Source: Thermococcus sp. EP1
GTDB lineage: Archaea; Methanobacteriota_B; Thermococci; Thermococcales; Thermococcaceae
NCBI RefSeq assembly: GCF_001317345.1
Contig: NZ_JXCG01000001.1
Span: 1-64,000 of the forward strand
Direction of reading: 5' to 3'
Length of the DNA: 64,000 nucleotides
Shown: one piece after another, positions 4,234 to 22,036 of the stretch
Position numbering within the stretch: position 1 is the stretch's first letter
How the letters are laid out: each line of letters begins with the position of its first letter
Position numbers and translations under genes: made by a program
The notes under the pieces: generated by a model
What the model was told of the DNA's origin: nothing
Databases searched by the model: none
What the model saw: the letters and a program-made list of their open reading frames with translations, nothing else

Positions 4234-4961
4234 AGATAATATTCCTTGATCTTGACAAAACCCTCATAGGAGAGGACTATTCCCCAGAACCAGCCAAAAA
4301 AATAGTAGAATTTCTAAAGGAGAGGGGATTTAAGATAATATTTAACTCATCAAAAACTAAAGCTGAACAGGAGTACTACCGAAAGGCACTTGATATTAAC
4401 GATCCATTTATCGTAGAAACTGGAAGTGCAGTGTATATCCCAAAAGATGACCTGCCTTTTAACTTTCCCTTTACACGGAAAGAGAGAAATTATCTAGTAA
4501 TTGAGCTTGGAGTTAGCTATACTATAATAAAAAAAGCTCTAGATGAGATAAAAGACGAATTTGGATTAAAATACTATGGAAACTCAAGCCTAGAGGAAGT
4601 AATTAAATACACCAATCTTCCAGGAGATCTAGCAAAATTGGCCATGCAAAGGGAGTATTCAGAAACCATATTCACTTGGGATACCCCAGGCTTCGAAAAA
4701 GAACTGACAAAAAGAGAATTAAAAATATCAAAGGGAAGCAGATTCTACAACGTAACTGGGAACACCGACAAAGGAAAAGCTGCTAAACTTATTTTGAATT
4801 TGTATTCACAGATTGAAAAAGTTGAGAGTTACGCCGTCGGAGATGGCCAAAACGACATTCCTATGCTCAAAGTCGTTGATTATCCCTTCACAATCGGTTT
4901 ATCCTATTCGGGGGCTAAGAATATAAGGGAAATAACTAAATTAATGGAGGTGATAAAATGA
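4230..4961 (+). CDS. mpgP: Mannosyl-3-phosphoglycerate phosphatase
   Basis: HAD-superfamily phosphatase (Cof/MPGP branch) that removes the phosphate from mannosyl-3-phosphoglycerate, releasing mannosylglycerate. The 243-residue product begins with the catalytic motif FLDLDKTL (Asp7 nucleophile, Asp9 acid/base) and ends with the metal motif GDGQND near residue 205. The start at 4230 forms an ATGA overlap with mpgS and places motif I at the extreme N-terminus, as usual; an upstream in-frame ATG at 4179 lies deep inside mpgS and is unlikely. The gene overlaps manC by another ATGA (4958-4961), so the two are translationally coupled. Confidence 0.95.
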
Positions 4962-6340
4962 AAACCCTAATCCTCGCTGGAGGGAAAGGCACTCGACTCT
5001 GGCCCCTGAGTAGAGAACTTATGCCAAAGCAGTTTATAAGAATATTTAACAACACTTCATTATTCCAAAAAACCATAGAAAGAGCACTAAAATTCTCAAA
5101 ACCAAAGGAAATTTTTGTCGTGACAAATAAAGAATACAAGTTCAGGGTTCTTGATGACCTTAAAGAACTTGGTCTTGAAATCCCAGAAGAAAATATCCTT
5201 CTAGAGCCTATAGGAAAGAACACTCTTCCAGCTATTTACTGGGGAATGAAGACTATAGAGGAAAATTATGGTAGATCGAAAGTTGCCGTGTTGCCCTCAG
5301 ATCACTTGATAAAAGTTGATGAAAACTATATTACAGCATTTGAAAAAGCTGAACAGCTTGCTAATAATTATTTCATAACATTCGGAATTAGACCTACAAA
5401 GCCTCACACAGGTTATGGATACATAAAACCTGGCGAAAAGCTTGAGGGAGGATACAAGGTAGATGAATTTAAAGAGAAGCCAGACTACGATACTGCGAAA
5501 CAATATGTAGAAAATGGGTATTACTGGAACAGTGGAATGTTCCTATTCGACAGCACTCTTTTCATCGAGGAAGTAAAAAGAGTCGCTCCTAAAGTTTACA
5601 CTGCTTTTGAAGAGGCAAAGAATATAGAAGAGGCATATGAAAAAGTACCAGATATCTCAGTTGACTATGGTGTCATGGAGAAAACAGACAAAGCTGCTGT
5701 GGTACCCCTAAATACATACTGGAATGACTTGGGGAGTTTTGATGCCATATATGAAGCCTTTGGGAAAGATAAAACTGGGAATGCTGTTAGAATCAGTGGA
5801 TTTAAAGGAGAGTACATAAACATAGACTCCAAAAATAATCTTGTAATAACTGAAAGATTAACAGCAACAGTTGGTGTTGAAGATCTGATAATAATCGATA
5901 CTGGAGACGCATTACTCGTTGCGAAAAAAGGAGAAACTCAGAAAGTTAAGGAAGTTTACAGAAAGCTTGTAGAGAGCAATGATGAGAGGGCCATAGTGCA
6001 CAAGACAGCGTACAGACCATGGGGCTCTTATACCGTGCTGGAAGAAGGAGAGAGATACAAAATAAAGCGCCTAACGGTTTTACCTGGAAACAGACTCTCC
6101 CTCCAACGACACTATCATCGCTCGGAACATTGGGTTGTAGTCAGAGGGACTGCAAAAGTGAAGATAGGGGATAAAGAACTCCTATTAAGGCCTGGAGAGA
6201 GTACTTTCATACCTGCAGGGGTAGTACACAGACTCGAAAATCCCGGGAAAGTCACACTTGAAGTCATAGAAACACAAATAGGAGAATACCTGGGTGAAGA
6301 TGACATTGAACGTTTCCAAGACGATTTTGGAAGAGGTTGA
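4958..6340 (+). CDS. manC: Bifunctional mannose-1-phosphate guanylyltransferase / mannose-6-phosphate isomerase
   Basis: Supplies GDP-mannose and interconverts fructose 6-phosphate and mannose 6-phosphate. The 460-residue protein has an N-terminal nucleotidyltransferase domain (GGKGTRLWPLS at residues 8-18, PSDH near 112, FKEKP near 171) and a C-terminal cupin domain from about residue 345 with the metal-binding pattern RHYHRSEHW near 385 and PAGVVHR near 423. This is the type II PMI/GMP architecture. It lies in the mannosylglycerate operon and overlaps mpgP by four bases. The protein could also supply GDP-mannose for glycan synthesis. Confidence 0.95.
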   Translation: MKTLILAGGKGTRLWPLSRELMPKQFIRIFNNTSLFQKTIERALKFSKPKEIFVVTNKEYKFRVLDDLKELGLEIPEENILLEPIGKNTLPAIYWGMKTIEENYGRSKVAVLPSDHLIKVDENYITAFEKAEQLANNYFITFGIRPTKPHTGYGYIKPGEKLEGGYKVDEFKEKPDYDTAKQYVENGYYWNSGMFLFDSTLFIEEVKRVAPKVYTAFEEAKNIEEAYEKVPDISVDYGVMEKTDKAAVVPLNTYWNDLGSFDAIYEAFGKDKTGNAVRISGFKGEYINIDSKNNLVITERLTATVGVEDLIIIDTGDALLVAKKGETQKVKEVYRKLVESNDERAIVHKTAYRPWGSYTVLEEGERYKIKRLTVLPGNRLSLQRHYHRSEHWVVVRGTAKVKIGDKELLLRPGESTFIPAGVVHRLENPGKVTLEVIETQIGEYLGEDDIERFQDDFGRG

Positions 6341-6375
6341 GATAAAAAGCCTATAATAGGGCACAGGTGATGAAG

Positions 6376-7749
6376 ATGAGCAAGATATTTGGGACATTCG
6401 GCGTTAGGGGCATAGCAAATGAGAAAATAACCCCAGAATTTGCTTTAAAAATGGGCCTAGCTTTTGGAACACTTTTAAAAAGAGAAAAACCAACCAAAGA
6501 GCTTTGGGTAGTTGTGGGAAGAGACACTAGAGTAAGTGGAGAAATGTTGAAAAATGCCTTAATAAGTGGCCTACTAAGCACTGGCATTAATGTTATAGAT
6601 GTAGGTATAGCTCCAACACCGGCAATTCAGTTCGCATGTAAATACTTCAAAGTGGACGGAGGAGCTGTTATCACAGCATCTCACAATCCTCCAGAATACA
6701 ATGGAATAAAACTTCTCGAACCAAATGGATTGGGACTCAAAAAAGAGAGAGAAAGTATAGTTGAGGAACTTTTCTTTAATGAGGAATTTCATAAGGCAAA
6801 ATGGTATGAAATTGGCCAACTCGTAGAAAGAGATATAATAAGACCATATATAGACGCGATAAAGTCTAAAGTGGACATTGAAGTCATAAAAAAGAGAAGA
6901 CCATTTGTAGTCGTCGATACATCAAACGGTGCTGGGTCACTTGTGCTCCCATACCTCCTAAGGGAACTCGGGTGTAAAGTTGTGAGTGTAAATGCTCAGC
7001 CAGATGGCCACTTTCCAGCAAGAAATCCAGAACCGAATGAAGAAAACCTTCAAGGATTTATGAAAATCGTTAAATCGCTTGGCGCTGACTTTGGAGTTGC
7101 TCAAGATGGAGATGCAGATCGTTCAGTATTCATAGATGAAAACGGAAACTTTATTCAAGGAGATAAGACCTTTGCCCTTGTGGTCAAAGCTATGCTCGAA
7201 GAAAATAAGGGTGGTCTGGTGGTGACAACCATTGCCACTTCTCACATAATCGATGAACTTGCCAAGATGTATAATGGAAAGGTCATCAAAACCAAAGTGG
7301 GGGATCTAATAGTATCGAGAACCCTTCTGGAGCATAATGGACTAGTTGGAGGAGAAGAAAATGGTGGAGTTATCTTTCCAGAACATGTTCTTGGTAGAGA
7401 TGGTGCAATGACCGTAGCAAAGATAGTTGAGATCTTTGCAAAGAGCGGCAAGAAATTCAGTGAGTTAATAGACACACTTCCAAAATTCTACCAACTCAAA
7501 ACTAAAAAACATGTCGAAGGAGATAGAAAAACAATTGTCGCAAAAGTAGCAAAATTCGCAAAGAAAGAAGGGCTAACTATTGATACAACCGACGGGACAA
7601 AGATACTCTTCAAAGATGGTTGGGTTCTTGTGAGAGCGAGTGGAACCGAACCCATAATAAGAATCTTTGCCGAAGCAAAAAGCGAAGAAAAAGTAAAAGA
7701 ATACCTCAACTTGGGACTAGACCTATTAGAAAAAGTATTAAACGATTAA
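6376..7749 (+). CDS. Phosphomannomutase/phosphoglucomutase
   Basis: Alpha-D-phosphohexomutase that converts mannose 6-phosphate to mannose 1-phosphate for ManC. The 457-residue product has the four family signatures: the phosphoserine loop TASHNPP (Ser102), the magnesium loop DGDADR near residue 245, GGEENGG near 325 and the phosphate-binding RASGTEP near 423. The start at ATG 6376 is preferred because AGGTGA (6365-6370) lies at the right distance; upstream GTG 6367 and ATG 6370 overlap that site. It is the last gene of the mannosylglycerate operon, 35 bases after manC. Archaeal members often accept both glucose and mannose phosphates. Poly-T-rich sequence follows the stop codon. Confidence 0.92.
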   Translation: MSKIFGTFGVRGIANEKITPEFALKMGLAFGTLLKREKPTKELWVVVGRDTRVSGEMLKNALISGLLSTGINVIDVGIAPTPAIQFACKYFKVDGGAVITASHNPPEYNGIKLLEPNGLGLKKERESIVEELFFNEEFHKAKWYEIGQLVERDIIRPYIDAIKSKVDIEVIKKRRPFVVVDTSNGAGSLVLPYLLRELGCKVVSVNAQPDGHFPARNPEPNEENLQGFMKIVKSLGADFGVAQDGDADRSVFIDENGNFIQGDKTFALVVKAMLEENKGGLVVTTIATSHIIDELAKMYNGKVIKTKVGDLIVSRTLLEHNGLVGGEENGGVIFPEHVLGRDGAMTVAKIVEIFAKSGKKFSELIDTLPKFYQLKTKKHVEGDRKTIVAKVAKFAKKEGLTIDTTDGTKILFKDGWVLVRASGTEPIIRIFAEAKSEEKVKEYLNLGLDLLEKVLND

Positions 7750-10473: not shown

Positions 10474-12717
10474 CTATTTCTCCAAGGTTACTTCTTCTCC
10501 TAGACTTAAGATAGCTTCTTTTCCAAATGCACAAACTTTAACATTTCTTGTCCCATTAATGATTTTTGCCCTTATCTTGTTATTTTTGACAACAAGATCA
10601 ATCCATGTTCCTCTGAAAAAGAATCTAAGGTTTACTGATTCCCATTTTTGAGGTAAGCTTGGCGAGATTTCTACTCTATCATCCTTGATGTCAATTCCAC
10701 AAAAACCTCGGAAGAGTGCTTGCCATACTCCCCCTGCTGTTGCAAGATGGAAGCCATCATGAGTGTTCCCATAAATGTTCCTAAGATCTATATAAGCACA
10801 CTTTGTGAAATAGTCATAGGCCAGATCATCATAACCTAGCCAAGAGGCCACTATGCTGTAAGCCGGCATTGAAAGAGAAGAAGCGTGGGTCGTCCGGACA
10901 ATGTAGTAATCAAAGTTCTTTTTAATTGTCTCAAGATCAAACTGTTCCTTTAACAGATATTGAGCTGCTATAACATCCGCTTGCTTTATGAGCCTTGTTT
11001 TTCCTATCCTTTTTCTTATCTCTTCGGGGAGTCTTGCTTCTCCAATACCATAAGGATCAAGTTTGTAGTCTTCCAAGTCAAAATATCCATCAAATTCCTC
11101 GAATACTCCCTCCACTTGTCTTGGAATATAAATCCTTTCTGCTATCTGAAGCCATTTATGCACTTCCTCTTCATCAACTCCAGTTCTTTTTACAGTTTCT
11201 ACCCATTCGCCCCCAAGCTCCAGAGCTTTTTTAAAATACGCAACTCCTAAGAGAAGGTTATGCTTTGCCATTAAATTCGTGAAAAAGCTATTATCTACGT
11301 GCTCATGATACTCATCTGGACCTATGACTTTTCGTATTACATACCCTCTTTTCTCATCAAATTCTACCCTACTGGCCCAAAAACGGGCCGTTTCAAGGAT
11401 TATTTCAAGCCCATATTTTGACATGAACTCTTCATCTCTAGTAAACTTATAGTACAAGTCCACAGTATAAGCTATGTCTGCGGTTATATGGTGCTCTTCC
11501 TCTCCTGTGTAAATTCTCACAACTTCCTTACCAGCCATGTCGAGAGGAACCAGGGAGGGAGTAGCCTCATACCCATCGTCAGCAGACTCCCAAGGGAATT
11601 GAGCACCATCATAACCATTGAGTTTAGCATTTTCTTTAGCAGGTTTTAGATTCCTATACCTATACATCAGCATCCTCCTGGCATCATCTGGAAAAACTGC
11701 TATAAAGAATGGAAGTGCATAGATCTCAGTGTCCCAGAAAACATGTCCCCTATAACCAAAGCCGTGTATTCCTCTGGCTGTTAGAGAAATATTGCTATCT
11801 CTTGGTAGTGACTGAATCAAATGGAAGAGACTAAAGTTAAGCCCTTTTTCTGCCTCATCATCACCTTCAATCTCAATCTTGGCCTTCTTCCAAATGTTAT
11901 TCCAGTACTCTCTGTGCTCTTCATAAAGCTTCCCAAAACCCAATTCCACAGCTTCTTTGAGTTCTCCTAAAACTTGTTCCTTTAAATTCTCATCGTTTTT
12001 AGAGGATATAACCACATATTTAATAAATTCATAGACCTCGTTAGGCCGAACTTGTAGACTTAAGACCTCTGCTATACCCCTACTACTCTTTATAACGCTT
12101 CTCTCCACCTTTTCCTCTGTGATAAGGGAACTTCCAATCCCAATGCTGTATCTATCATCCAGTGTTCTAACCTCCGCATATATTGATTCCTCATCAAAAT
12201 AAAGTTCCTTAAGTGAGCAATGTTTCACCATAATTTCTGGACGGTAAGAAGGGTTTGCAACATCTGTTTCAATTGGATTTACCAAAGTTAATAAACCACC
12301 TTTACTCGCTTGAAATTTAAACTTTAATATAATAAGGTTCTTTCGTTTTCCATGAACAATTCTTAAACTCTCATATTGAATTTTCACTCCTTTGTGGGTC
12401 TCCATGTGAACCCAAGTCTTTAATGTTCCTTCCTTAATATTAAGTTCTCTTTCATATCTTGAAAGCTTGTGTGTGCTCAAATTAAGAGGCTCTCCACTAA
12501 ACATCATCTGCAGCCCAATTACTCGAGGAGCATTCACGATTTCTCTATAAAAGTAGGGAGCATAGTCATAAATCCCCGCAACAGTTGTACCATATATTGT
12601 GGGTTCAAGTTCAATTTCTCCCCTTAACCCAATATGACCATTTCCTAATGTTAATATCGTACCATAAAGTTCCTCTTCTCTTGGTGAGTATCGGTTAAAC
12701 TCGAAATTGAACTTCAT
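10474..12717 (-). CDS. GH65 disaccharide phosphorylase (kojibiose/trehalose/maltose phosphorylase family)
   Basis: Inverting phosphorylase that splits an alpha-glucosyl disaccharide with phosphate, giving beta-glucose 1-phosphate. The 747-residue length, the N-terminal beta-sandwich, the (alpha/alpha)6 barrel and the short C-terminal cap fit the family. The catalytic acid lies in IGPDEYHEH near residue 470, and the phosphate-loop-like THASSLSMPAYS lies near 615. Linkage specificity (alpha-1,2 kojibiose, alpha-1,1 trehalose or alpha-1,4 maltose) cannot be read by eye. It overlaps the stop codon of the beta-phosphoglucomutase-like gene by four bases, which supports beta-glucose 1-phosphate as product. 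No signal peptide, so it acts on imported sugar. Confidence 0.88.
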   Translation of the reverse strand: MKFNFEFNRYSPREEELYGTILTLGNGHIGLRGEIELEPTIYGTTVAGIYDYAPYFYREIVNAPRVIGLQMMFSGEPLNLSTHKLSRYERELNIKEGTLKTWVHMETHKGVKIQYESLRIVHGKRKNLIILKFKFQASKGGLLTLVNPIETDVANPSYRPEIMVKHCSLKELYFDEESIYAEVRTLDDRYSIGIGSSLITEEKVERSVIKSSRGIAEVLSLQVRPNEVYEFIKYVVISSKNDENLKEQVLGELKEAVELGFGKLYEEHREYWNNIWKKAKIEIEGDDEAEKGLNFSLFHLIQSLPRDSNISLTARGIHGFGYRGHVFWDTEIYALPFFIAVFPDDARRMLMYRYRNLKPAKENAKLNGYDGAQFPWESADDGYEATPSLVPLDMAGKEVVRIYTGEEEHHITADIAYTVDLYYKFTRDEEFMSKYGLEIILETARFWASRVEFDEKRGYVIRKVIGPDEYHEHVDNSFFTNLMAKHNLLLGVAYFKKALELGGEWVETVKRTGVDEEEVHKWLQIAERIYIPRQVEGVFEEFDGYFDLEDYKLDPYGIGEARLPEEIRKRIGKTRLIKQADVIAAQYLLKEQFDLETIKKNFDYYIVRTTHASSLSMPAYSIVASWLGYDDLAYDYFTKCAYIDLRNIYGNTHDGFHLATAGGVWQALFRGFCGIDIKDDRVEISPSLPQKWESVNLRFFFRGTWIDLVVKNNKIRAKIINGTRNVKVCAFGKEAILSLGEEVTLEK

Positions 12718-13418
12718 ACCCTACCCTCCTTTCTTTCTATAAGCTGCTGAAGGTTCTTAGTAGTCAATTTGGCAAAATCATCAAAAGTCAAGTCAGCACT
12801 ATCCAACTTCGCTTCCCTTTCATAGCCCAAAGTAAAGGCTCCAAGTTCTTTTCCAGCCCGAATACCTGCTGGAGCATCTTCAATTACGAAGAAAAATTTG
12901 ATATCTGAAAAATTTCTTCTCAACTCTTCCATCGCCAGTTTGAAAACCTCTTTTTTAGTTGGGGCCATTCCACTAACATTCACATCAAACAAATCAGCAA
13001 GTGTTTTCTCCCCAATCTTGACTTTTTTCGCTAGTTTTGTCGCATTTTTAGATGCAGATGCAAGAGCATTCTTTATTCCAGCTTTTTTTGCGTTCTGTAA
13101 AAAGGCTATTGCATTCCAATTAACCTCGTATTCCTCCCTTTCAAACATCTCGTTGACTATCCTGTTCTTAAACTCTGCAAATTCATGTAGAAGTTCCTTT
13201 CTCTCTTCTTCACTTCTTGCATTATATTTTTCATAAATCCCCTTGAGTTCTAATATCTTATGAGCTCCCTCATATCTTGGTTTCCCTGAAACATAGGTCA
13301 CATAAAATTCGTGATCAATGTCCGCTCCGTAGTGCCTTGCAGCTCTTTTCCAAGCTTCTTCATGAGGAGTAAAGACTAATACACCATCAAAGTCCCATAT
13401 TAGTGCTATCTCCTTCAT
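12714..13418 (-). CDS. Beta-phosphoglucomutase-like HAD protein
   Basis: HAD-superfamily protein of 234 residues with motif I DFDGV (Asp9 nucleophile, Asp11), a cap segment containing SGKPRYEGA near residue 44, motif II Ser/Thr in ASASKN near 120 and the acidic motif EDAPAGIRAG near 178. This set fits beta-phosphoglucomutase, which would convert the GH65 product beta-glucose 1-phosphate to glucose 6-phosphate. It sits between a TrmB-family regulator (15-base gap) and GH65 (4-base overlap), all on one strand. Other HAD phosphatase activities are possible, but the context is strong. Confidence 0.82.
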   Translation of the reverse strand: MKEIALIWDFDGVLVFTPHEEAWKRAARHYGADIDHEFYVTYVSGKPRYEGAHKILELKGIYEKYNARSEEERKELLHEFAEFKNRIVNEMFEREEYEVNWNAIAFLQNAKKAGIKNALASASKNATKLAKKVKIGEKTLADLFDVNVSGMAPTKKEVFKLAMEELRRNFSDIKFFFVIEDAPAGIRAGKELGAFTLGYEREAKLDSADLTFDDFAKLTTKNLQQLIERKEGRV

Positions 13419-13433
13419 TTGATGCCCTCCAGT

Positions 13434-14492
13434 TCATCTTTCTATTTTCTCTATTATAATGCGCTGAGCCTCGATATCTTCCACCTCTGCATCAAATCCT
13501 CCTATAGTTAATGTCCCTTCTTCACTTTCAAGAACAAAATTACTTACAATTCCAAAACGGTTTACAGAACGAACTCTTCCTTTGGTTTTTATGGGGTAAC
13601 TACTTTTAATATCCCTTCCTTCTACTGTAACTATGGGAGTGTAACCAAGCTTTAAGAGAGTTTCCAGCTCGTTAAGCGCCATAGAAAATTCTATAAAGGT
13701 CTTTGGATACAGTTCGGGCCTTGAAACCCAACAAAGGGCCTCTTTAGCCTTTATCCATAGATTATTGTGAATGTTTAGTAATCTAAGCAATAAATCCTTT
13801 TCTTGAATGACATACCCATAAATCTCCGTATTTGAAACGGGAAGCTTATGAACACTAAAGAACCTTCTTTTTGCATAAACTGCACTTGAAAGATCTGCAA
13901 TAACAAGCAAAAAGTTCCCAAGTTCAGAGGTTTTTATTTTCACTTGATCTTTGAATCTCTCAAATTCCTCAAATCCGCCAGTTCCAGGGTATACCAAAAG
14001 ATATAAGTTTACTCCTCTCTGAGCAGCCCCTAAAAGATAATGTTTGAGCTCTTTAAAAATAGGGAATGGCAGTTCTGCTCTAATCTCTACTTCTGCAGAG
14101 TTAACTATCTCTATAATACTAGCCAATACACCCTCTAAACTCCTAACCATAGAGATATACGGTCCCTCTTCTTCCGACCTGCTTTTTATTTTCATAAGTT
14201 CTTCTTGAAGAGTGCTTTTTAAAAGGTCAAATTTCATTTTTTGAATATCTATGAGGGCGCTTATATCACTTGCAGTATATATTCTAGGCCTCCCTGCAGA
14301 AGCTCTAATAAACCCCTTCCTGATAAGGCTTTGGATTATGTTATACAATTGAGGTTGATGTATATCCAATGACTCAAGAAGATCCTTCACGGTGGCCCCA
14401 TTCCTCACAAGAATAGCAAGATACACTTCAGCTTCTCTTTTCGTGAGTCCTAGTTCCTGTAGCTTCTCAATCAAAAACGCATAGTTTTCCAT
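13434..14492 (-). CDS. TrmB-family sugar-sensing transcriptional regulator
   Basis: Regulator of 352 residues. An N-terminal winged helix-turn-helix (about residues 8-80, with TKREAEVYLAIL and the recognition segment QPQLYNIIQSL) is followed by a short coiled region and the TrmB-type effector domain; the C-terminal beta-rich part (about 285-352) matches the TrmB sugar-binding end. It differs at the N-terminus from classical TrmB as I remember it, so it is a separate family member. It is divergent from the sugar ABC operon and heads the beta-PGM/GH65 operon, so it very likely controls both. Repeats at 14516-14564 around its own TATA box are candidate operators. The effector is probably the imported sugar. 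Confidence 0.87.
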   Translation of the reverse strand: MENYAFLIEKLQELGLTKREAEVYLAILVRNGATVKDLLESLDIHQPQLYNIIQSLIRKGFIRASAGRPRIYTASDISALIDIQKMKFDLLKSTLQEELMKIKSRSEEEGPYISMVRSLEGVLASIIEIVNSAEVEIRAELPFPIFKELKHYLLGAAQRGVNLYLLVYPGTGGFEEFERFKDQVKIKTSELGNFLLVIADLSSAVYAKRRFFSVHKLPVSNTEIYGYVIQEKDLLLRLLNIHNNLWIKAKEALCWVSRPELYPKTFIEFSMALNELETLLKLGYTPIVTVEGRDIKSSYPIKTKGRVRSVNRFGIVSNFVLESEEGTLTIGGFDAEVEDIEAQRIIIEKIER

Positions 14493-14515
14493 TGGTACAC
14501 CCCCACTGCCCCCTG

Positions 14516-14564
14516 CTACTATACTTTTTCTGCATTAATACTATTTAAATATATTGCATACTAT
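14516..14564. promoter_or_regulatory. TACTAT direct repeats, candidate operator of the TrmB-family regulator
   Basis: TACTAT occurs at 14517-14522, 14539-14544 and 14559-14564, that is 22 and 20 bases apart (about two helical turns), with the last two extended to ATACTAT. They flank the leftward TATA box (TTTAAAT). A related inverse copy (TAGTATA) lies at 14592-14598 after the rightward TATA box. The glycolytic consensus TATCAC-N5-GTGATA is absent here. Which protein binds is inference from location. Confidence 0.45.
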
Positions 14565-14574
14565 ATCAGTAAGG

Positions 14575-14583
14575 TTTATATAA
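14575..14583 (+). promoter_or_regulatory. TATA box of the sugar ABC operon
   Basis: TTTATATAA preceded by AAGG. The predicted start site near 14605 gives a leader of about 40 bases containing GGGAGGGA before ATG 14645. Confidence 0.55.
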
Positions 14584-14644
14584 TATCATTGTAGTATAAA
14601 AATTGAAAGACCATATTACTTAACCCTAGGTGGGAGGGAGAAAA

Positions 14645-15976
14645 ATGAAGAAAGTTCTCTTTGGAGGTCTTTTGATTTTTGCCTTGCTTTTTGCAGTAGT
14701 AGCCTCAGGATGTATTGGAGGCCAAACTCCAACCCCAACAACAGAAACAAAGACTGAAACCGAGACACAGATTCAAGAAAAAGTCTTCATAAGATTTGCA
14801 GGTTGGAGCGCTGGAGAAACTGAGATGAAAAACTACCAAAAAATGATTGCTGAATTTGAGCAAGCAAACCCGAACATTGGTGTTAAATATGAGGTCATTA
14901 CTCAAATGTTCCACGAAAACATCCTAGCTTCATTTGGAGCTGGTGTTGCTCCAGACATATTCTACGTCGATAGCGCATGGTCACCAATATTCATTGACAA
15001 GGGAGCTCTATACCCAATATCCGAACTTGCAGACCAAAGCTTTATCGATCAATTCTATCCATTCCTCTTAGAACCCTTCAAGAAAGATGGAAAGCTTTAT
15101 GGTCTTCCAAAAGATTGGAGTATGTTAGCTCTCTTCTATAACAAGAAACTCTTTGAGCAAGCAGGATTGACAAAACCACCCGAAACTTGGGAAGAGCTTG
15201 AACAATACGCAAAGATAATAGCTGATAAAACTGGAAAACCTGGCTTGGCAATTTACCTTGGTGGATTCAACAGATACGTACCCGTTGCTGTGAGTAACGG
15301 TGCTCCAAAGCCTTGGTTTGAAAAACCTGAAGATGCAGCTTGGTTTGACAATCCAGTGGTTAAAGAAACCCTTACTTGGTACATAAACCTCTACAAGAAA
15401 GGAAAGATTGAGAGAGAAGAACAAGGATTAACTCCTTATGTTGTGCAACCCGGAGATGTAGGTGCAGGATGGCTTGGAGATGCCTTTGGTCAACAAGAAG
15501 TTGCTATGGTAATAAGTGGAAACTGGATGATACCATTCTTAGCTGATCAGTTCCCTGACTTCAAGTATGGAGAAGACTGGGACATTGCTCCAGTTCCAGC
15601 TGGAAAAGAAGGCAGAGTTACAATGGCATATACAGTCATCTTAGGAATAAACGCAAAGAGCGAACATCCACAAGAGGCTTGGAAATTTGTAGAATTCTTA
15701 TTAGGTCCAGATGGACAAAAAGAACTTGTTGTCAAAGGAGGACACACACTACCAAGCATAAAGGGCTTTGAGAACGACCCCGACATGTGGCCACAACACA
15801 AGAAGACACTCTCCTTTGAGTACGACGAAATGATAGTGTTCCTTTGGGGTCCAAAATCAGGACCACTTGAAGGTAAGTTCAGTGACGCAATGGCTGCTGC
15901 AATGAGAGGAGAAATGACAATTGACGAAGCAATAGATGTTATGAAGCAGGTTGTTCAAGAAGAATTAAGTGGCTGA
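14645..15976 (+). CDS. Sugar ABC transporter substrate-binding lipoprotein
   Basis: Extracytoplasmic solute-binding protein of the MalE-like family (443 residues). The N-terminus has a hydrophobic signal with the lipobox VASGC (lipidated Cys23), followed by a Thr/Glu-rich linker (about residues 27-48) that tethers it to the membrane, then the two-lobed binding fold (AGWSAGETEMKNYQ onward; ADQFPDFKYGEDW near 300). It is the first gene of the malEFGK-like operon. I chose ATG 14645 because GGGAGGGA precedes it; a GTG at 14630 would add five residues but overlaps that site. The sugar is unknown; the neighbours point to a di- or oligosaccharide. Confidence 0.92.
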   Translation: MKKVLFGGLLIFALLFAVVASGCIGGQTPTPTTETKTETETQIQEKVFIRFAGWSAGETEMKNYQKMIAEFEQANPNIGVKYEVITQMFHENILASFGAGVAPDIFYVDSAWSPIFIDKGALYPISELADQSFIDQFYPFLLEPFKKDGKLYGLPKDWSMLALFYNKKLFEQAGLTKPPETWEELEQYAKIIADKTGKPGLAIYLGGFNRYVPVAVSNGAPKPWFEKPEDAAWFDNPVVKETLTWYINLYKKGKIEREEQGLTPYVVQPGDVGAGWLGDAFGQQEVAMVISGNWMIPFLADQFPDFKYGEDWDIAPVPAGKEGRVTMAYTVILGINAKSEHPQEAWKFVEFLLGPDGQKELVVKGGHTLPSIKGFENDPDMWPQHKKTLSFEYDEMIVFLWGPKSGPLEGKFSDAMAAAMRGEMTIDEAIDVMKQVVQEELSG

Positions 15977-15986
15977 GGTGACTGAT

Positions 15987-16925
15987 ATGTTTTCTTTTTC
16001 TTCTTTTTATGAGAAGGCTAGAAATAAGGAAATTGTTGCCGGTTTATCTCTCATCTCAATCGCTGTCATTCTAAACCTCGTTTTTGGATATTTTGCAATG
16101 GGATTTGCCTTCTATTTGAGCTTTTTCAAGTGGGATTATATAGGGACAATGCAATTTGTGGGGTTAAAAAATTTTGAGATAGTGTTAAGAGACCTAATGA
16201 GAGGTCTCAACGGAGCCTCATATTTACTTTCTCCGTTTTATACAGGATTAAAAAACATTCTTATTTATACTGCAATAGTTGTCCCCGTACAAACGTTTCT
16301 TGCTATAGTTTTAGCCTCTTTTGCAAATCAAAAGATTAAGGGCCAACAATTCTTTAAAGTATCCTACTTTCTTCCTGCAACCACCTCTTCCGTTATAGTC
16401 GCCTTGATTTTTATTTGGCTCTTCATGAAAAACGGTTTTATTAATTTTGCACTTTCCCATGTAATTCCAGGATTCCAACCAATAGACTGGATAAACGATA
16501 GAAATTATCTCCTCTTAGCGATAGCTACTGTTGCTATATGGGGAACCAGTGGACACTTTATGGTGTCCTTCCTAGCAGCAATGCAAGCGATTCCCAAAGA
16601 AATATACGAGGCGGCTATGCTAGATGGTGCAGGCCCCATAAGAAGATTCTTCTTCATAACAATTCCAATGTTAAGGCCCATGATAGTGTATGTAGTGGTT
16701 ATGGGTCTTATTGGGGCCCTCCAGATGTTTGACCTAGCTTGGGTAATGGCTGGGGCCAATGGCGGGCCAGGAGGGGCAGGATACACCGTGGCACTGGACA
16801 TCTATAATGAGGCATTTACAAGAATTAACCCCGGGGTTGCAGCAGCTAAAAGTTGGTTCCTCTTTGCTATAATCTTTACAACTACATATATCTTCCAGAA
16901 AAAGTATGGGAGGGCTATGAGATGA
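15987..16925 (+). CDS. Sugar ABC transporter permease (MalF-like)
   Basis: Integral membrane permease of 312 residues with about six membrane segments and the ATPase-coupling EAA loop (EAAMLDGAGPIRRFFFITIPML near residues 208-229, where the conserved Gly follows EAAMLD). Transports the ligand of the upstream binding protein. ATG 15987 is preferred over GTG 15969 because GAGGTGA (15975-15981) lies just before it; this puts the start 10 bases after the binding-protein stop codon. The gene overlaps the second permease by four bases. Unlike bacterial MalF, it lacks a large periplasmic P2 domain. Confidence 0.9.
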   Translation: MFSFSSFYEKARNKEIVAGLSLISIAVILNLVFGYFAMGFAFYLSFFKWDYIGTMQFVGLKNFEIVLRDLMRGLNGASYLLSPFYTGLKNILIYTAIVVPVQTFLAIVLASFANQKIKGQQFFKVSYFLPATTSSVIVALIFIWLFMKNGFINFALSHVIPGFQPIDWINDRNYLLLAIATVAIWGTSGHFMVSFLAAMQAIPKEIYEAAMLDGAGPIRRFFFITIPMLRPMIVYVVVMGLIGALQMFDLAWVMAGANGGPGGAGYTVALDIYNEAFTRINPGVAAAKSWFLFAIIFTTTYIFQKKYGRAMR

Positions 16926-17770
16926 CACCCAAAGAAAAAGAACTACTAATACGACGTATCTGGGTTGTAATAACTTATGTAGTCCTATTAACCTTTGCAC
17001 TCGTTTATCTAATGCCATTCATCCGCTCTCTTGTAGCTTCTTTTATGACGTGGGCTCAAGCTTCAAGATACCCCCCAGAGTGGATGCCTAGTCCATTCAC
17101 CCTAGAGAATTATCAGAAACTCTTTAGGTTGGAATTATTCCCAAGATGGATTAGAAACACTGCTCTTTATGCGGGTTTAATAGTTGCGGGCAATATAATG
17201 TTTACCAGCATGGCCGGTTATGCATTTGCTAGATTGAAATTCCCAGGGAGAGATGTTCTTTTTTCAGCTCTACTTTCTCTCTTGATGATCCCCATGTTCG
17301 TAACCTTAGTGCCAAATTACATTATAATATATAAGCTTGGGCTAATAGACAACATCTTTGGACTTGCCCTTCTGGGCCTCACTAATGTCTCGAGCATATT
17401 CCTAATGAGACAGTACTTCATGTCTCTTTCCACCGAAATATTTGAAGCTGCTCGTTTGGATGGATGCGGACCGATAAAATCATTTTTCTACATTGCCTTA
17501 CCTCTAGCAAGACCTGCCCTTGGAGCAGTGGCCGTATATCAATTCTTAGGCTCTTGGAATGCATTTATAGGTCCACTGATCTTCTTAAGATCTCCCGAGA
17601 ACTTCACACTCCCAGTAGGACTTAGTTTTGCTTTCCAAAGAAGCATGTGGACTGAATACACTCCAATAATCGCAGGTTCACTCGTGGCATCTGCACCCAC
17701 GATAATCCTCTTCCTTGTGCTGAATAAGTATCTGATTAGAGGTATAGTAGTTACAGGAGGGAAAGGCTGA
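16922..17770 (+). CDS. Sugar ABC transporter permease (MalG-like)
   Basis: Second permease of the sugar importer, 282 residues, with six predicted membrane segments and an EAA loop (FEAARLDGCGPIKSFFYIA near residue 180). The start at ATG 16922 forms an ATGA overlap with the first permease; a longer frame from 16853 would run inside that gene and add a non-homologous head. The stop codon overlaps the ATPase start by one base (17770), so binding protein, permeases and ATPase are tightly coupled. Confidence 0.9.
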   Translation: MTPKEKELLIRRIWVVITYVVLLTFALVYLMPFIRSLVASFMTWAQASRYPPEWMPSPFTLENYQKLFRLELFPRWIRNTALYAGLIVAGNIMFTSMAGYAFARLKFPGRDVLFSALLSLLMIPMFVTLVPNYIIIYKLGLIDNIFGLALLGLTNVSSIFLMRQYFMSLSTEIFEAARLDGCGPIKSFFYIALPLARPALGAVAVYQFLGSWNAFIGPLIFLRSPENFTLPVGLSFAFQRSMWTEYTPIIAGSLVASAPTIILFLVLNKYLIRGIVVTGGKG

Positions 17771-18843
17771 TGGCGAGGGTTTTGCTGAAGAATGTCACAA
17801 AGAAATTTGGAGATGTGATAGCTGTTAGTAGGCTAAACCTTGAAATTAAAGATGGAGAATTCATGGTGCTACTTGGTCCAAGTGGATGTGGGAAATCAAC
17901 AACTCTTAGAATGATTGCTGGATTGGAAACACCTACAGAGGGTGAAATATGGATTGGCGATCAATTAGTTAATGAAATAGACCCCACTAAGAGAAATACA
18001 GCAATGGTATTCCAGAGCTATGCTTTATACCCCCATATGACTGTCTTTGGGAATATCGAATTTCCTCTAAGAATGGCTGGTGTTCCAAAACAGGAACGAG
18101 CCAAAAAGGTAAAAGAAGTTGCAGAGTTCCTGGGAATAAGTGAGTTGTTAAACAGAAAACCAAGCGAGTTAAGTGGTGGGCAACAGCAAAGAGTAGCACT
18201 TGCAAGAGCACTCGTAAGAGAACCTGAGGTATTTCTACTAGATGAACCTTTAAGTAACTTGGATGCAAAAATAAGAACTCAAATGCGTTTTGAGCTTAAA
18301 AAACTCTTGAGTTACGATTTAGGAATAACAACAATTTATGTAACTCACGATCAGGTCGAGGCTATGACAATGGCCGATAGAATAGCTGTTATGAATAAAG
18401 GAGTTCTCCAACAAGTTGGAACTCCAAATGAAATCTTTTACAAACCCGCAAACACTTTCGTCGGTACATTTGTAGGAAGCCCCCCTATGAATCTAATTGA
18501 AGGAGAAATAATTGTAAAAGACAACAAAACACTCTTTAATGCTGGTGAATTTTTGTTAGAGCTTCCAATAGAAATGGAAGCCAGGGAAAAAGTGATTCTA
18601 GGCTTCAGGCCCCAGCATGTAGAAGTAAGCAAAGACGCAAAGGAAGGGTTTGTTAAAGGAAAGCTCCTAGGTATCGAAAAACTAGGGGTAGAAAGTTATG
18701 GCCATATTCCCTATGGCAACCTAGAGATAGTTGTTCAACTTCCAGAAAGTATGGGAACCAGTGTAAAAGAGGTTTACTGGAAACCAAGGGCAGACAGAAT
18801 ATACATATTCGATGCTAAAACAAGAGAACTCATTTATGGATAA
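17770..18843 (+). CDS. Sugar ABC transporter ATPase (MalK/MsmK-like)
   Basis: Energising ATPase of the sugar importer, 357 residues. Walker A GPSGCGKST is at residues 36-44, the signature LSGGQQQR near 136, Walker B FLLDEP near 156, and the switch histidine in THDQVEAM near 190. A C-terminal OB-fold (TOBE) regulatory domain covers about 240-357, as in MalK. It forms the last transporter gene and is followed after 12 bases by the GH130-like gene, which therefore belongs to the same transcript. Confidence 0.93.
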   Translation: MARVLLKNVTKKFGDVIAVSRLNLEIKDGEFMVLLGPSGCGKSTTLRMIAGLETPTEGEIWIGDQLVNEIDPTKRNTAMVFQSYALYPHMTVFGNIEFPLRMAGVPKQERAKKVKEVAEFLGISELLNRKPSELSGGQQQRVALARALVREPEVFLLDEPLSNLDAKIRTQMRFELKKLLSYDLGITTIYVTHDQVEAMTMADRIAVMNKGVLQQVGTPNEIFYKPANTFVGTFVGSPPMNLIEGEIIVKDNKTLFNAGEFLLELPIEMEAREKVILGFRPQHVEVSKDAKEGFVKGKLLGIEKLGVESYGHIPYGNLEIVVQLPESMGTSVKEVYWKPRADRIYIFDAKTRELIYG

Positions 18844-18855
18844 GGAGGGAACTTT

Positions 18856-19893
18856 TTGAAAAAGAAATATGCGGCTATTATTTTTTTATTAATATTTACA
18901 ATTCTGTTTCTAACTTATGGATTCAGATACGATTGTACTCCTCCAATAAGTGGATACACACGAGTTTCAGACAAACCAATTTTATCCCCAGGGGAGTATC
19001 CTTTCGAAAGCAAAGCAGCGTTTAATCCCGCAGCAATTGTTGTTAACGATACGATTTATCTATTCTACAGAGCCCAAGATAATAAATTTAGATCTTATAT
19101 AGCCCTAGCAACTAGTAAAGATGGGATAAACTTCAAAAAGTATCCTCAACCCGTGATATATCCCACTCTCCCAGAAGAAAGAATGGGATGTGAAGATCCA
19201 AGAATTGTAAAAATCAACGATACTTACTATATGACATATACAGCTTTTGATGGTTCCACTGCAAGACTTGCAATAGCTTCAAGTAAAGATCTAATACACT
19301 GGGAAAAACATGGAATAGTGTTCCCTGAATGGCCATGGACAAAAAGTGGTGCAATACTCCCAGTTAAAATAAACGGAAGCTATATAATGTTTTTTGGAGA
19401 TTGGAAAATCTGGATTGCATACAGCAAAGATTTAATTCATTGGAAAGCAGACTGGAAAAATCCAATACTAGAGGCCAGGTTAAAAATGTTTGATGAACGT
19501 CTCGTAGAACCAGGTCCACCTCCAATACTCACAGACAGAGGCATTTTGCTATTTTATAATGGAGCAAGCTGGGAAAAAGGATATAGTGTTGGGTGGGTTC
19601 TACTCGATCCCTCTAATCCCTACAGGGTTATCGCAAGGTCTGATGAGCCTATATTTGAACCACAATTACTTTGGGAAAAAGTGGGAAATGTTCCAAATGT
19701 GGTTTTTGCTGAAGGCCTAGTAAGGTACAAGGGAAAGTGGATCATGTACTATGGAGCAACGGATAAGTATACCGGAGCCATCATAGCACCAGCGTGCAGA
19801 TTTAGCTTTTATGGAAAAGAGATCAAAAATGCATGGTTTAATGAGTGGCTTAACAAGGTCTTCTGGAGATTATATGGAGAAAATTACCCATAA
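18856..19893 (+). CDS. Membrane-anchored GH130-like glycoside phosphorylase/hydrolase
   Basis: 345-residue protein with an N-terminal membrane segment (about residues 5-21) and a five-bladed propeller of the GH130 type: NPAAIV near 57, FYRAQD near 70, ATSKDGINF near 85, and the family motif GCEDPRI with catalytic Asp114. GH130 enzymes act on beta-mannosides, most as phosphorylases in the cytoplasm, some exported members as hydrolases. The N-terminal anchor predicts an extracytoplasmic position, which favours hydrolysis or mere binding. The start is TTG 18856 with GGAGGGA five bases before it. It is co-transcribed with the ABC genes. Specificity is not known; a GH43/GH32-type propeller is the alternative. 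Confidence 0.72.
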   Translation: MKKKYAAIIFLLIFTILFLTYGFRYDCTPPISGYTRVSDKPILSPGEYPFESKAAFNPAAIVVNDTIYLFYRAQDNKFRSYIALATSKDGINFKKYPQPVIYPTLPEERMGCEDPRIVKINDTYYMTYTAFDGSTARLAIASSKDLIHWEKHGIVFPEWPWTKSGAILPVKINGSYIMFFGDWKIWIAYSKDLIHWKADWKNPILEARLKMFDERLVEPGPPPILTDRGILLFYNGASWEKGYSVGWVLLDPSNPYRVIARSDEPIFEPQLLWEKVGNVPNVVFAEGLVRYKGKWIMYYGATDKYTGAIIAPACRFSFYGKEIKNAWFNEWLNKVFWRLYGENYP

Positions 19894-19966
19894 ATCAAGA
19901 CAAAATCTAAATCTTTGTTACTCAACCCTGAAAATATTGCCACAAGAGTGTTAGAGGGGTGATAAA

Positions 19967-21169
19967 ATGAGAATAGCAATGATAACTCCTCATGGAGATC
20001 CATTGGGGAAATTGGGTGAACCAGACACTGGAGGTCAGTGTGTCTACATTAAAGAACTAAGCAAGCATCTAGGAGAGTTAGGGGCAGAAGTAGATATGTT
20101 CACCAGACAGAGAGGTGGAAAACCTCCTATAGAGCACATTAACGAAAATGTCAGGGTAATTAGGATAGAATGTGGTCCTGAAGGCTTCATTCCAAAGGAG
20201 AAGCTAATACCATATTTGCCAGAATTCACTGAAAAAATTGCCAGATACATGAAGGAAAGAAATTATGAAATTCTCCATACCCATTACTGGGATGGTGGTT
20301 TTGTAGGATTAAAACTCAAGGAAATGTTTGAAGTTAAAATGGTACATACCTCCCATTCTCTTGGAATTCTGAAAGCAAAAGCTCTAGGGGACTTTGAACC
20401 ATACAAAGATAGAATTGCCCTTGAAAAAGAGATTTACGATAAGGGTGATGCTATAATAGCAACTACAAACATTGAAAAGAAAGATATAGCTACCCTTTAT
20501 GAAATTGACGAGAATAAAATCCACGTGATCCCTATAGGGGTTGACACAAGCTTTTATAAACCAATAGAAAAGAAAGAAAAGCTAAAAAAGGAGCTTAAAC
20601 TTCCAAAAGTGCCATTAGTCTTTACTCTAGCAAGACTAGACCCAAGAAAGGGCTTAGACTTGCTCATAAAGAGTGTTCCCTATATCAAGAAGCATTATGA
20701 TGGAGATTTTCTAGTTCTAATAAGTACCGGCACCGGAGCAAAGGAAGAAGAACCAGAAAAACAGAAGCTTTTACGTTTAATTAAAGAATTGAAAGTTGAA
20801 GATCGTGTAAAGATAATTCCTGCAATAGAGCCGAGAGAACTAGTTCCAAAATACTATTCAGCTGCGGATGTCTTTGTTCTTCCCTCTCCATACGAGCCAT
20901 TTGGAATAGTCATGCTTGAAGCAATGGCATGCAAAACTGCTATGGTGGGAACAAAGTTTGGGGGTCCAGCAGAAGTCCTAACAGATGGTTATGATGGATT
21001 CTTAGTAGACCCAAAAAATTCTGAAGAAATGGGAGCCAAGATTGCAGAGCTGTTAAAGAATAAGGAGAAGAGAGATACCTTTGCGGAGAGAGCATATCAG
21101 AGAGTTCTCGAAAGATACTCCTGGCATAGCGTGGCTAAACAAGTACTCCAACTCTTTAAAGAATTATGA
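19967..21169 (+). CDS. GT4 glycosyltransferase of the sucrose(-phosphate) synthase-like clade
   Basis: 400-residue GT-B enzyme. The N-terminal GGQCVYIKELSKHLGELG (near residues 22-39), THYWDGG near 107 and HTSHSLG near 126 are typical of sucrose synthase, sucrose-phosphate synthase and mannosylfructose-phosphate synthase. The donor-site E-x7-E motif is EPFGIVMLE near residue 308. It could make or, like sucrose synthase and TreT, reversibly cleave a disaccharide with NDP. The gene follows the GH130-like gene by 73 bases with GGGGTGA before ATG 19967, and a fructokinase-like gene follows after 9 bases. Resemblance to known trehalose synthase TreT of this order is weaker than to the sucrose-type clade, judged from memory. 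Confidence 0.8.
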   Translation: MRIAMITPHGDPLGKLGEPDTGGQCVYIKELSKHLGELGAEVDMFTRQRGGKPPIEHINENVRVIRIECGPEGFIPKEKLIPYLPEFTEKIARYMKERNYEILHTHYWDGGFVGLKLKEMFEVKMVHTSHSLGILKAKALGDFEPYKDRIALEKEIYDKGDAIIATTNIEKKDIATLYEIDENKIHVIPIGVDTSFYKPIEKKEKLKKELKLPKVPLVFTLARLDPRKGLDLLIKSVPYIKKHYDGDFLVLISTGTGAKEEEPEKQKLLRLIKELKVEDRVKIIPAIEPRELVPKYYSAADVFVLPSPYEPFGIVMLEAMACKTAMVGTKFGGPAEVLTDGYDGFLVDPKNSEEMGAKIAELLKNKEKRDTFAERAYQRVLERYSWHSVAKQVLQLFKEL

Positions 21170-21178
21170 GGTGACAAC

Positions 21179-22036
21179 ATGATTGATATTTTGACATTAG
21201 GGGAAGCATTAGTTGACTTAAAACTCATAAATAGTCAAATAAGTATGCACGCTGGTGGCTCTGTCCTTAACTTTTCTTATTATGCTGAACAAACTGGGGC
21301 AAAAGTGAAATTTGTTGGCACTATAGGAAATGACTTCTTAGCAGACCATATAGAAAGTGAACTCAAATACTTAAATTCAAACATAAAGCCATTTCGTATA
21401 GGTCAAAACACGACTCTAGTTTTAATAAAAGAAGCTGGAAAAGATTTTATCATCTATAGAGGAGCTGACAGGTTCTTAACCTATAATATAATCGAGAGAA
21501 ACTGGAAAAAAGCAGAGATTGTACATACCTCTGCATTCGCACTCTCTCTGAAGCCTGCCAGTGCGGCCATTCTTAGAGCATTGAAAAAAGCAAAGGATGA
21601 AGGAGTATTGATCTCAATAGACCCCAATTATCGTAAAGAAATATGGAAGAAATGGAATGCTAAAAAAGAAAATCTACTACAGGCCCTCGCAATGGCAGAT
21701 TATGTTAAACCCTCATTTGAAGATGCTAAGGAACTCTTTGGAATAGAAACTCCAGAAGAAGCATTAAAGGCTTTTAAAAACGCAGGAGCAAAGAATATTA
21801 TATTAAGTATGGGAGAAAGAGGAGTTATTGCACTTACTGAAGACAACGAGATTATTAAAGTACCTGCAAAGAAAGCTAACATTGTGGACCTCACAGGAGC
21901 TGGAGATTCGCTTTTTGGAACAGTGATAGCAAATATAGCAAAGGGATATTCTCTCAATGAAGCCATACAAGAAGGAATCAATGTAGCCACTCAAGTTATA
22001 AAAAACCCAGGCAACCTCGTAAGAATAACACAATGA
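21179..22036 (+). CDS. PfkB-family sugar kinase (fructokinase-like)
   Basis: Ribokinase-fold kinase of 285 residues. The N-terminal GEALVDL and the glycine pair AGGSVLNFSYY near residue 26 form the sugar site; the C-terminal signature DLTGAGDSLFGT near 235 carries the catalytic aspartate. Most similar by eye to fructokinases and KDG kinases. It lies 9 bases after the GT4 gene with GAGGTGA before its start, and ends the island. If GT4 releases free fructose, this enzyme would phosphorylate it. The substrate is inferred from context only. Confidence 0.82.
   Translation: MIDILTLGEALVDLKLINSQISMHAGGSVLNFSYYAEQTGAKVKFVGTIGNDFLADHIESELKYLNSNIKPFRIGQNTTLVLIKEAGKDFIIYRGADRFLTYNIIERNWKKAEIVHTSAFALSLKPASAAILRALKKAKDEGVLISIDPNYRKEIWKKWNAKKENLLQALAMADYVKPSFEDAKELFGIETPEEALKAFKNAGAKNIILSMGERGVIALTEDNEIIKVPAKKANIVDLTGAGDSLFGTVIANIAKGYSLNEAIQEGINVATQVIKNPGNLVRITQ

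Follow-up and report, generated by a model that had tools for sequence, protein, structure and literature searches.

We analyzed a 64,000-nucleotide stretch of Thermococcus sp. EP1 (contig NZ_JXCG01000001.1, positions 1 to 64,000; hereafter the window) and concentrated on a sugar island at 10474-22036, in which two divergent operons meet at one promoter region. The island is a composite, joining a kojibiose system to a separate two-gene cassette, GT4-PfkB, that encodes a GT4-family glycosyltransferase resembling sucrose-phosphate synthase (SPS) and a PfkB-family sugar kinase. Its features, with the evidence for each, are as follows.

10474-12717, minus strand: GH65 phosphorylase, kojibiose type (Pfam GH65 N, central and C domains)
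12714-13418, minus strand: beta-PGM-like HAD protein (NCBIfam PGMB-YQAB-SF and bPGM, scores below cut-off)
13434-14492, minus strand: TrmB-family regulator (PF01978 and PF11495)
14538-14600: divergent promoter and putative operator region, common to both operons (conserved motifs)
14630-15976, plus strand: ABC sugar-binding protein, SBP (PF01547)
15969-16925, plus strand: ABC permease 1 (PF00528)
16853-17770, plus strand: ABC permease 2 (PF00528)
17770-18843, plus strand: MalK-type ATPase (NCBIfam UgpC subfamily)
18856-19893, plus strand: GH130-like membrane-anchored protein with a hydrolase-type active site (PF04041)
19967-21169, plus strand: GT4 glycosyltransferase, SPS-like (nearest PDB matches, active-site residues, model)
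21179-22036, plus strand: PfkB sugar kinase, fructokinase-like (nearest PDB match)

All ten genes are intact open reading frames (ORFs) at these coordinates, and Pfam and NCBIfam searches bore out the families and positions that a preliminary description of this DNA had named. That description had also set the TrmB gene between two divergent operons; the operons do diverge, but TrmB opens the leftward one. The beta-PGM and GH65 genes overlap at their ends, and an ATG near 16922 is a likelier start for the second permease than the listed TTG at 16853. The SBP has as its top PDB match the putative maltose-binding protein 8art (115 bits), the ATPase scores 439 bits against the UgpC subfamily (cut-off 432) and 369 bits, below cut-off, against MalK, and the HAD protein scores 80 bits against PGMB-YQAB-SF and 68 bits against bPGM, each below its cut-off. 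Judged by dN/dS against the counterparts in genome G009, which ranged from 0 to 0.23 over nine of the ten genes (the second permease was left out), the island genes are under purifying selection; against G016, synonymous sites were saturated in the three genes tried.

To assign the phosphorylase we read its specificity at CsKP positions 64, 392, 394, 402, 416 and 585, where EEAPxx is described as the kojibiose phosphorylase motif (PMC8537180). The window enzyme reads EEAPYR, carries the motif GPDEYHEH and the loop RTTHASSLS, and has kojibiose phosphorylase 3wiq as its top PDB match (501 bits). GH65 matches occur in 24 of 94 Thermococcaceae genomes, and EEAP is found in all 22 near-complete proteins, the window's included, a count that omits a split gene in G020 and a contig-end fragment in G024, the covered parts of which agree. 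By the published fingerprint, then, the protein that had been described as a disaccharide phosphorylase is one of the kojibiose type. The beta-PGM fits the product of GH65, and the TrmB, which is distant from P. furiosus TrmB 3qph (58 bits), keeps G320 and E326, residues named for the sugar-binding segment of the latter (PMC4158304). Taken with the ABC importer from which they diverge, the GH65, beta-PGM and TrmB genes have the look of a system for kojibiose uptake and phosphorolysis. Genome G022 has the same gene order, TrmB and importer included, around a GH65 that is only 54% identical to the window's; orthologue searches found no GT4-PfkB cassette there, and the one GH130 match, which lies elsewhere in the genome, is only distantly related. 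This half of the island is already known and not new, a kojibiose catabolic pathway having reportedly been characterized in Pyrococcus sp. ST04 by Jung and co-workers in 2014.

Two side observations concern these loci. In G020, GH65 falls into two reading frames (L062 and L066, G020:C11:21337-23563), through either disruption of the gene or an error of sequencing. A protein of 637-660 amino acids adjoins GH65 in some kojibiose loci (L098:2525-4444, L145:8047-10005, L139:3944-5857), with glycogen-debranching-type domains in the two that were searched; in G003 a 637-amino-acid ORF also lies behind the TreT operon, beside a cytoplasmic GH130.

The GT4-PfkB cassette is distributed quite differently from the kojibiose genes. 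GT4 orthologues, 74-96% identical, are present in 9 of the 94 Thermococcaceae genomes (the window's among them), PfkB orthologues are present in exactly those nine, and the two genes are adjacent in every case. Among 115 genomes of the phylum there was no further GT4 orthologue, and a broad contig scan, which reaches close relatives only, gave 11 loci with a sole orthologue, in Thermococcus sp. JdFR-02. Searching the literature, we recognized no description of the cassette among the matches listed, most subscription journals being outside the scope of the search.

In three genomes (G000, G009 and G016) GT4-PfkB follows the kojibiose importer. In five others (G015, G030, G075, G069 and G007) it sits in a separate operon with the order SBP'-permease'-permease'-GT4-PfkB-TrmB', to which the last four add MalK', and in G020 it is accompanied by TrmB' only. 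The published trehalose/maltose (TM) operon runs malE malF malG treT trmB malK (PMC4158304), an order that we read directly in G003; the TM-type order thus recurs in the five stand-alone operons (with MalK' in four), which have the TM layout with treT replaced by GT4-PfkB. MalK' is 82% identical to the MalK of the G003 TreT operon. The exchange is also seen in the other direction, in that the place after malK in the kojibiose operons of G019, G020 and G033 is taken by TreT; all three TreTs exceed the NF041139 cut-off, and the adjacency to malK in G033 was confirmed by tblastn. The window itself was rejected as a TM-type operon: its TrmB is divergent, its GT4 comes after malK and GH130, and it has no TACT-N3-AGTA site.

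We read 23 of the 24 GH65 neighborhoods, of which three carry the cassette; G006, G011, G098 and G109 (contig end) show no importer, G117 stops soon after malK, and such counts include close relatives and do not number independent events. The stand-alone operon of G015 is flanked by the same genes (ClC, SpeB; IF5A) as the window island. GT4-PfkB is a rarer, independently moving two-gene cassette beside a common kojibiose system, which replaces the earlier idea of two alternative routes for one disaccharide; the accompanying claim that the set differs from known TreT loci held up, even though the operon plan is the same.

Further observations touch on this pairing. In G005 (L106:8623-8971) a GH130 fragment lies between malK and the IF5A gene, and GT4 and PfkB are absent, which looks like a cassette deletion. 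A further PfkB gene, with 26% identity to that of the window, lies divergently next to the TreT operon in G003 and G007 (L139:14200-15138, L152:8831-9850); the G003 copy scores 198 bits, below cut-off, against fructokinase PRK09434. On Acidithiobacillus plasmid p6 (L121), an MFS transporter, a PfkB kinase, a GH100 enzyme and a 720-amino-acid SPS-like protein annotated as a HAD hydrolase lie in one stretch, a bacterial example of an SPS-type GT4 and a PfkB kinase occurring together.

The two window operons have one common promoter region with mirrored half-sites. For the left operon we found TACTAT at 14539 with an AT-rich box, and for the right operon TTTATATAA at 14575; TAGTATAAA stands at 14592. 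TACTAT, the TTTATATAA box and TAGTATAAA are conserved in all 19 loci that have both TrmB and SBP in view (several of them close relatives), and the start-to-start distance between TACTAT and TAGTATAAA is exactly 54 nucleotides in 19 of 19, within extracted regions of 118-168 bases. The outer two motifs are inverted copies of TACT-type half-sites and resemble the TACT half-site known for TrmB (PMC4158304); their role as a TrmB operator is putative, conservation being no proof of binding. By itself TACTATTTAAAT is no rarer than chance in the window, the evidence being its conservation and spacing, and a search of the intergenic region for inverted repeats gave only two weak pairs. The TGM motif TATCAC-N5-GTGATA had no match in 10474-22036 with two mismatches allowed; in the whole window there were 5 matches against 2.08 expected, a number reached by 9 of 100 shuffles. 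The stand-alone operons have a site of their own: the TrmB operator, TACT-N3-AGTA, lies upstream of four of the five, 17-36 bases before the called SBP start, and these operons hold five of the six exact sites in the 179,109 bases of nine loci.

What, then, would the cassette enzymes do? The nearest PDB matches of GT4 are TeSPS (6kih, 223 bits), MshA (196 bits) and the SPS of H. orenii (HoSPS, 165 bits). Active-site residues have been named for TeSPS (Tll1590); among them, Arg105 and Arg178 bind the phosphate group of sucrose 6-phosphate (PMC7264703). At the TeSPS positions GT4 retains Gln51, His158, Arg178, Arg249, Arg253, Glu331, Pro332 and Glu339, and has Lys for Arg105, Thr for Ala48 and Ile for Leu335. 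The TeSPS-type pattern is identical in all nine GT4 orthologues, and the Lys for Arg105 is as in H. orenii SPS. Three TreTs, for which the acceptor is unphosphorylated, are without both acceptor-phosphate residues, in a stretch where the TreT alignment is weak. MshA differs by Met at TeSPS Gln51 and Thr at Ser159, positions at which the window GT4 has Gln and Ser.

An AlphaFold2 model of GT4 (mean pLDDT 81, 9 sequences) gave TeSPS 6kih as its best structural match (Z 41.5, root-mean-square deviation (rmsd) 4.1, 380 residues), with H. orenii SPS at Z 32.6 (rmsd 5.0, 393 residues) and TreT at Z 29.4 (rmsd 3.0, 342 residues). In a tree of 26 rows the nine GT4s formed a clade of their own (100/100), and against TIGR02472, the SPS family, GT4 scored 190 bits, below the cut-off of 576. 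By sequence and by model the enzyme is closest to SPS, with MshA close behind.

Three other assignments were set aside. Sucrose synthase has about 800 amino acids and N-terminal SSN domains that the 400-amino-acid GT4 lacks, and TIGR02470 scored 104.6 bits against a cut-off of 810.4, over the C-terminal half only. MshA, the inositol-phosphate GlcNAc transferase, was rejected on TIGR03449 (249.5 bits, cut-off 462.5) and on the Gln and Ser at TeSPS positions 51 and 159. For TreT, NF041139 (cut-off 775 bits) was not among the best 25 of 50 NCBIfam matches, the lowest of which scored 50 bits; the positive control L113 scored 858 bits.

The PfkB kinase has as its top PDB match the H. orenii fructokinase 3hj6 (149 bits), 62 bits ahead of the next (87 bits), and scores 118 bits against PRK09434, below the cut-off of 450. 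Both enzymes resemble the kinds that the preliminary description had proposed: GT4 is closest to SPS by sequence and model and keeps the SPS active site, and PfkB is fructokinase-like in its nearest solved relative by sequence.

GH130 (PF04041, 228 bits) has one N-terminal hydrophobic segment (residues 5-23, mean Kyte-Doolittle 2.29) and no lipobox evident by eye. The HRR of the phosphorylase 7fip, which its alignment with Glu227 of BT3780 suggests to be the phosphate site, is F-G-D in the window protein, and Asp182 and Glu218 align with Glu227 and Glu268 of the hydrolase BT3780, its proposed base positions (PMC4599007). A mannoside phosphorylase was rejected, the basic phosphate-binding residues being replaced; GH130 looks like an outside hydrolase rather than a phosphorylase. 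It occurs in G000, G009, G015 and G024, with a remnant in G005. Within the island only GH130 points to a mannosylated sugar, which had been offered as a shared substrate and is not supported.

We propose an account in two modules, kojibiose phosphorolysis and a catabolic, sucrose-type GT4-PfkB cassette, and give it an even chance of being right. In the first module, imported kojibiose would be split by GH65 with phosphate to glucose and beta-glucose 1-phosphate, which beta-PGM would convert to glucose 6-phosphate. In the second, GT4-PfkB would act on a sucrose-type (alpha-glucosyl-fructose) disaccharide in the way that TreT acts on trehalose, with the net reaction disaccharide + NDP + ATP -> NDP-glucose + fructose 6-phosphate. 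Both modules would have one importer and one promoter region in common; kojibiose is an alpha-1,2-glucoside, as is sucrose, which would allow a single importer and a single regulator to handle either sugar. Because the phosphate-binding acceptor site is kept, the bond handled by GT4 most likely has fructose 6-phosphate on its acceptor side.

The catabolic direction is suggested by context. We found no S6PP-family phosphatase in any of 11 genomes (the control was positive in 11 of the 14 named genomes) and no GH32 invertase in nine genomes, all eight GH32N matches being GH130 proteins, in an invertase search confined to GH32. With neither family found, classical synthesis by SPS and sucrose-phosphate phosphatase (SPP) and the GH32 invertase route are unsupported, and the TreT-like operon context makes the catabolic account the simplest.

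The two steps may come in either order. The acceptor-phosphate residues favor PfkB acting on the disaccharide before GT4, and a fructokinase-like PfkB fits action on fructose after it. In the fuller, kinase-first form of the proposal, PfkB would phosphorylate the fructosyl 6-OH of imported sucrose, GT4 would run as a reverse SPS (sucrose 6-phosphate + NDP -> NDP-glucose + fructose 6-phosphate), and the cassette and TreT would be able to replace each other on the import operons with TrmB in hyperthermophilic archaea. We know of no kinase-first sucrose pathway of this type, though none of our searches was aimed at one, and offer this form tentatively, as unlikely to be correct as it stands.

Several observations weigh against the two-module account. 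MshA, whose acceptor is a different phosphorylated compound, has the phosphate-site residues of GT4 as well and is tied with TeSPS in structure (Z 40.8, rmsd 4.3, 375 residues), and uncharacterized bacterial glycosyltransferases (e.g. Paracoccus TOH, Burkholderia and Streptomyces) share most of the pattern, so the active site supports SPS chemistry and does not prove it. The phylogeny proposed in the preliminary description gave the GT4s their own clade but put it beside H. orenii-type SPS at only 80/79, which is weak, with TeSPS on another branch and long branches flagged. In the structure search with the PfkB model, fructokinases did not stand out from the many other sugar kinases that fitted it equally. 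The part of SPP could be played by a different HAD phosphatase. The acceptor-phosphate site disfavors cleavage of unphosphorylated sucrose, yet unphosphorylated sugar is what the importer would bring.

The operon context has its own counterweights. A second importer operon in G003 has a MalK to which MalK' is just as close (82%), and TrmB' and SBP' are only 35% and 28% identical to their counterparts in the G003 TreT operon; the layout is common with the TM operon, and common descent does not follow from it. TACT-N3-AGTA is nowhere in the window, the intergenic region included, and the exact site is missing before the G015 stand-alone operon. G005, a near relative, is without the cassette, yet its importer is 97-100% identical to the window's. 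The account leaves the role of the anchored GH130 unexplained, and the function that it gives to the cassette is drawn from sequences, structure models and gene context.

Among the competing explanations, the one that survives best, and that we still consider doubtful, is the order of the preliminary description, in which free sucrose is first split by a sucrose-synthase-like GT4 and the fructose is then captured by PfkB. Its overall scheme is that of TreT, whose substrate is unphosphorylated, and a fructokinase-like PfkB does lie downstream. It is countered by the Lys/Arg kept at TeSPS Arg105/Arg178 in nine of nine orthologues, both of which the three TreTs lack (in the weakly aligned region), by the absence of sucrose synthase N-terminal domains from a protein of 400 amino acids, and by the TIGR02470 score of 104.6 bits against a cut-off of 810. 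Of the earlier idea that GT4 splits the sugar with NDP and PfkB captures the fructose, the SPS-like GT4 and the fructokinase-like PfkB stand, and plain sucrose-synthase cleavage is disfavored by the phosphate-binding residues.

Somewhat less probable is a synthetic SPS, with which the cassette would make a phosphorylated disaccharide or, given some further phosphatase, a compatible solute. The complete SPS-type active site in nine of nine orthologues and the best structural match, to an SPS, would suit it, and osmotic adaptation has been proposed as the role of SPS in other organisms (PMC2626281). Against it stand the lack of S6PP-family proteins in 11 of 11 genomes, the position of eight of nine copies in or behind sugar-import operons (the ninth is beside a TrmB gene), the TrmB operator at four of five stand-alone operons, and the availability of fructose 6-phosphate from glycolysis, which would make a fructokinase needless. 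Compatible-solute synthesis, which the preliminary description had named as its alternative, is weakened by the missing phosphatase family and, with the importer context added, is set back as a first choice.

We judge it comparably improbable that the sugar is not sucrose: GT4 could use another donor, such as GDP-mannose, or PfkB a substrate other than fructose, for another hexosyl-ketose. Mannosylfructose-phosphate synthase uses GDP-mannose, donor and kinase specificity are not readable from these sequences, the PfkB model fits many sugar kinases equally, and GH130 points to mannosides. Upstream, at 4958-7749 of the window, lie genes for a mannose-phosphate enzyme and a phosphomannomutase-like protein, which we take to resemble a mannosylglycerate operon. 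This reading is opposed by the slots of the cassette, which are otherwise those of TreT, and by its nearest solved relatives by sequence, which are sucrose-pathway enzymes. Finally, the island could be no more than the known pathway for kojibiose, with GT4-PfkB as an unrelated pair that has come to lie behind it by accident. This would agree with the cassette's presence in just 3 of the 23 kojibiose loci read (some cut by contig ends) and with its absence from G005, which keeps a GH130 remnant, but it is highly improbable, as the same pair recurs in TrmB-linked sugar-import operons elsewhere and TreT fills its slot in three other kojibiose operons.

The two-module account predicts the use of sucrose-type sugars by hyperthermophilic archaea. 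Import operons of Thermococcales carry exchangeable GT4-family disaccharide enzymes, TreT or GT4-PfkB, in the same slots, and the cassette may offer a thermostable SPS-like enzyme which, if run in reverse, would give NDP-sugars from a cheap disaccharide.

Set beside known systems, the kojibiose half resembles the Pyrococcus sp. ST04 cluster in its GH65 with the kojibiose phosphorylase fingerprint and its beta-PGM. The beta-1,2-mannosidases BT3780 and BACOVA_03624 are like the window GH130 in facing outside and in having acidic residues at both base positions; unlike them, the window protein is archaeal and membrane-anchored, and no mannan locus was seen around it. With SPS (TeSPS and H. orenii) GT4 has in common the fold, about 30% identity, and the catalytic and acceptor-phosphate residues; its setting is unlike theirs, in that it has its own clade, lies mostly in sugar-import operons and has no S6PP phosphatase found with it. 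The stand-alone cassette operons are like the TM operon in gene order, and four of the five share TACT-N3-AGTA with it, whereas the GT4-PfkB of the window is attached to a kojibiose operon. TreT, lastly, is far from GT4 in the tree, is without the acceptor-phosphate residues and is not followed directly by a PfkB gene in the loci read, but it is, like GT4, a GT4-family enzyme in the same operon slots.

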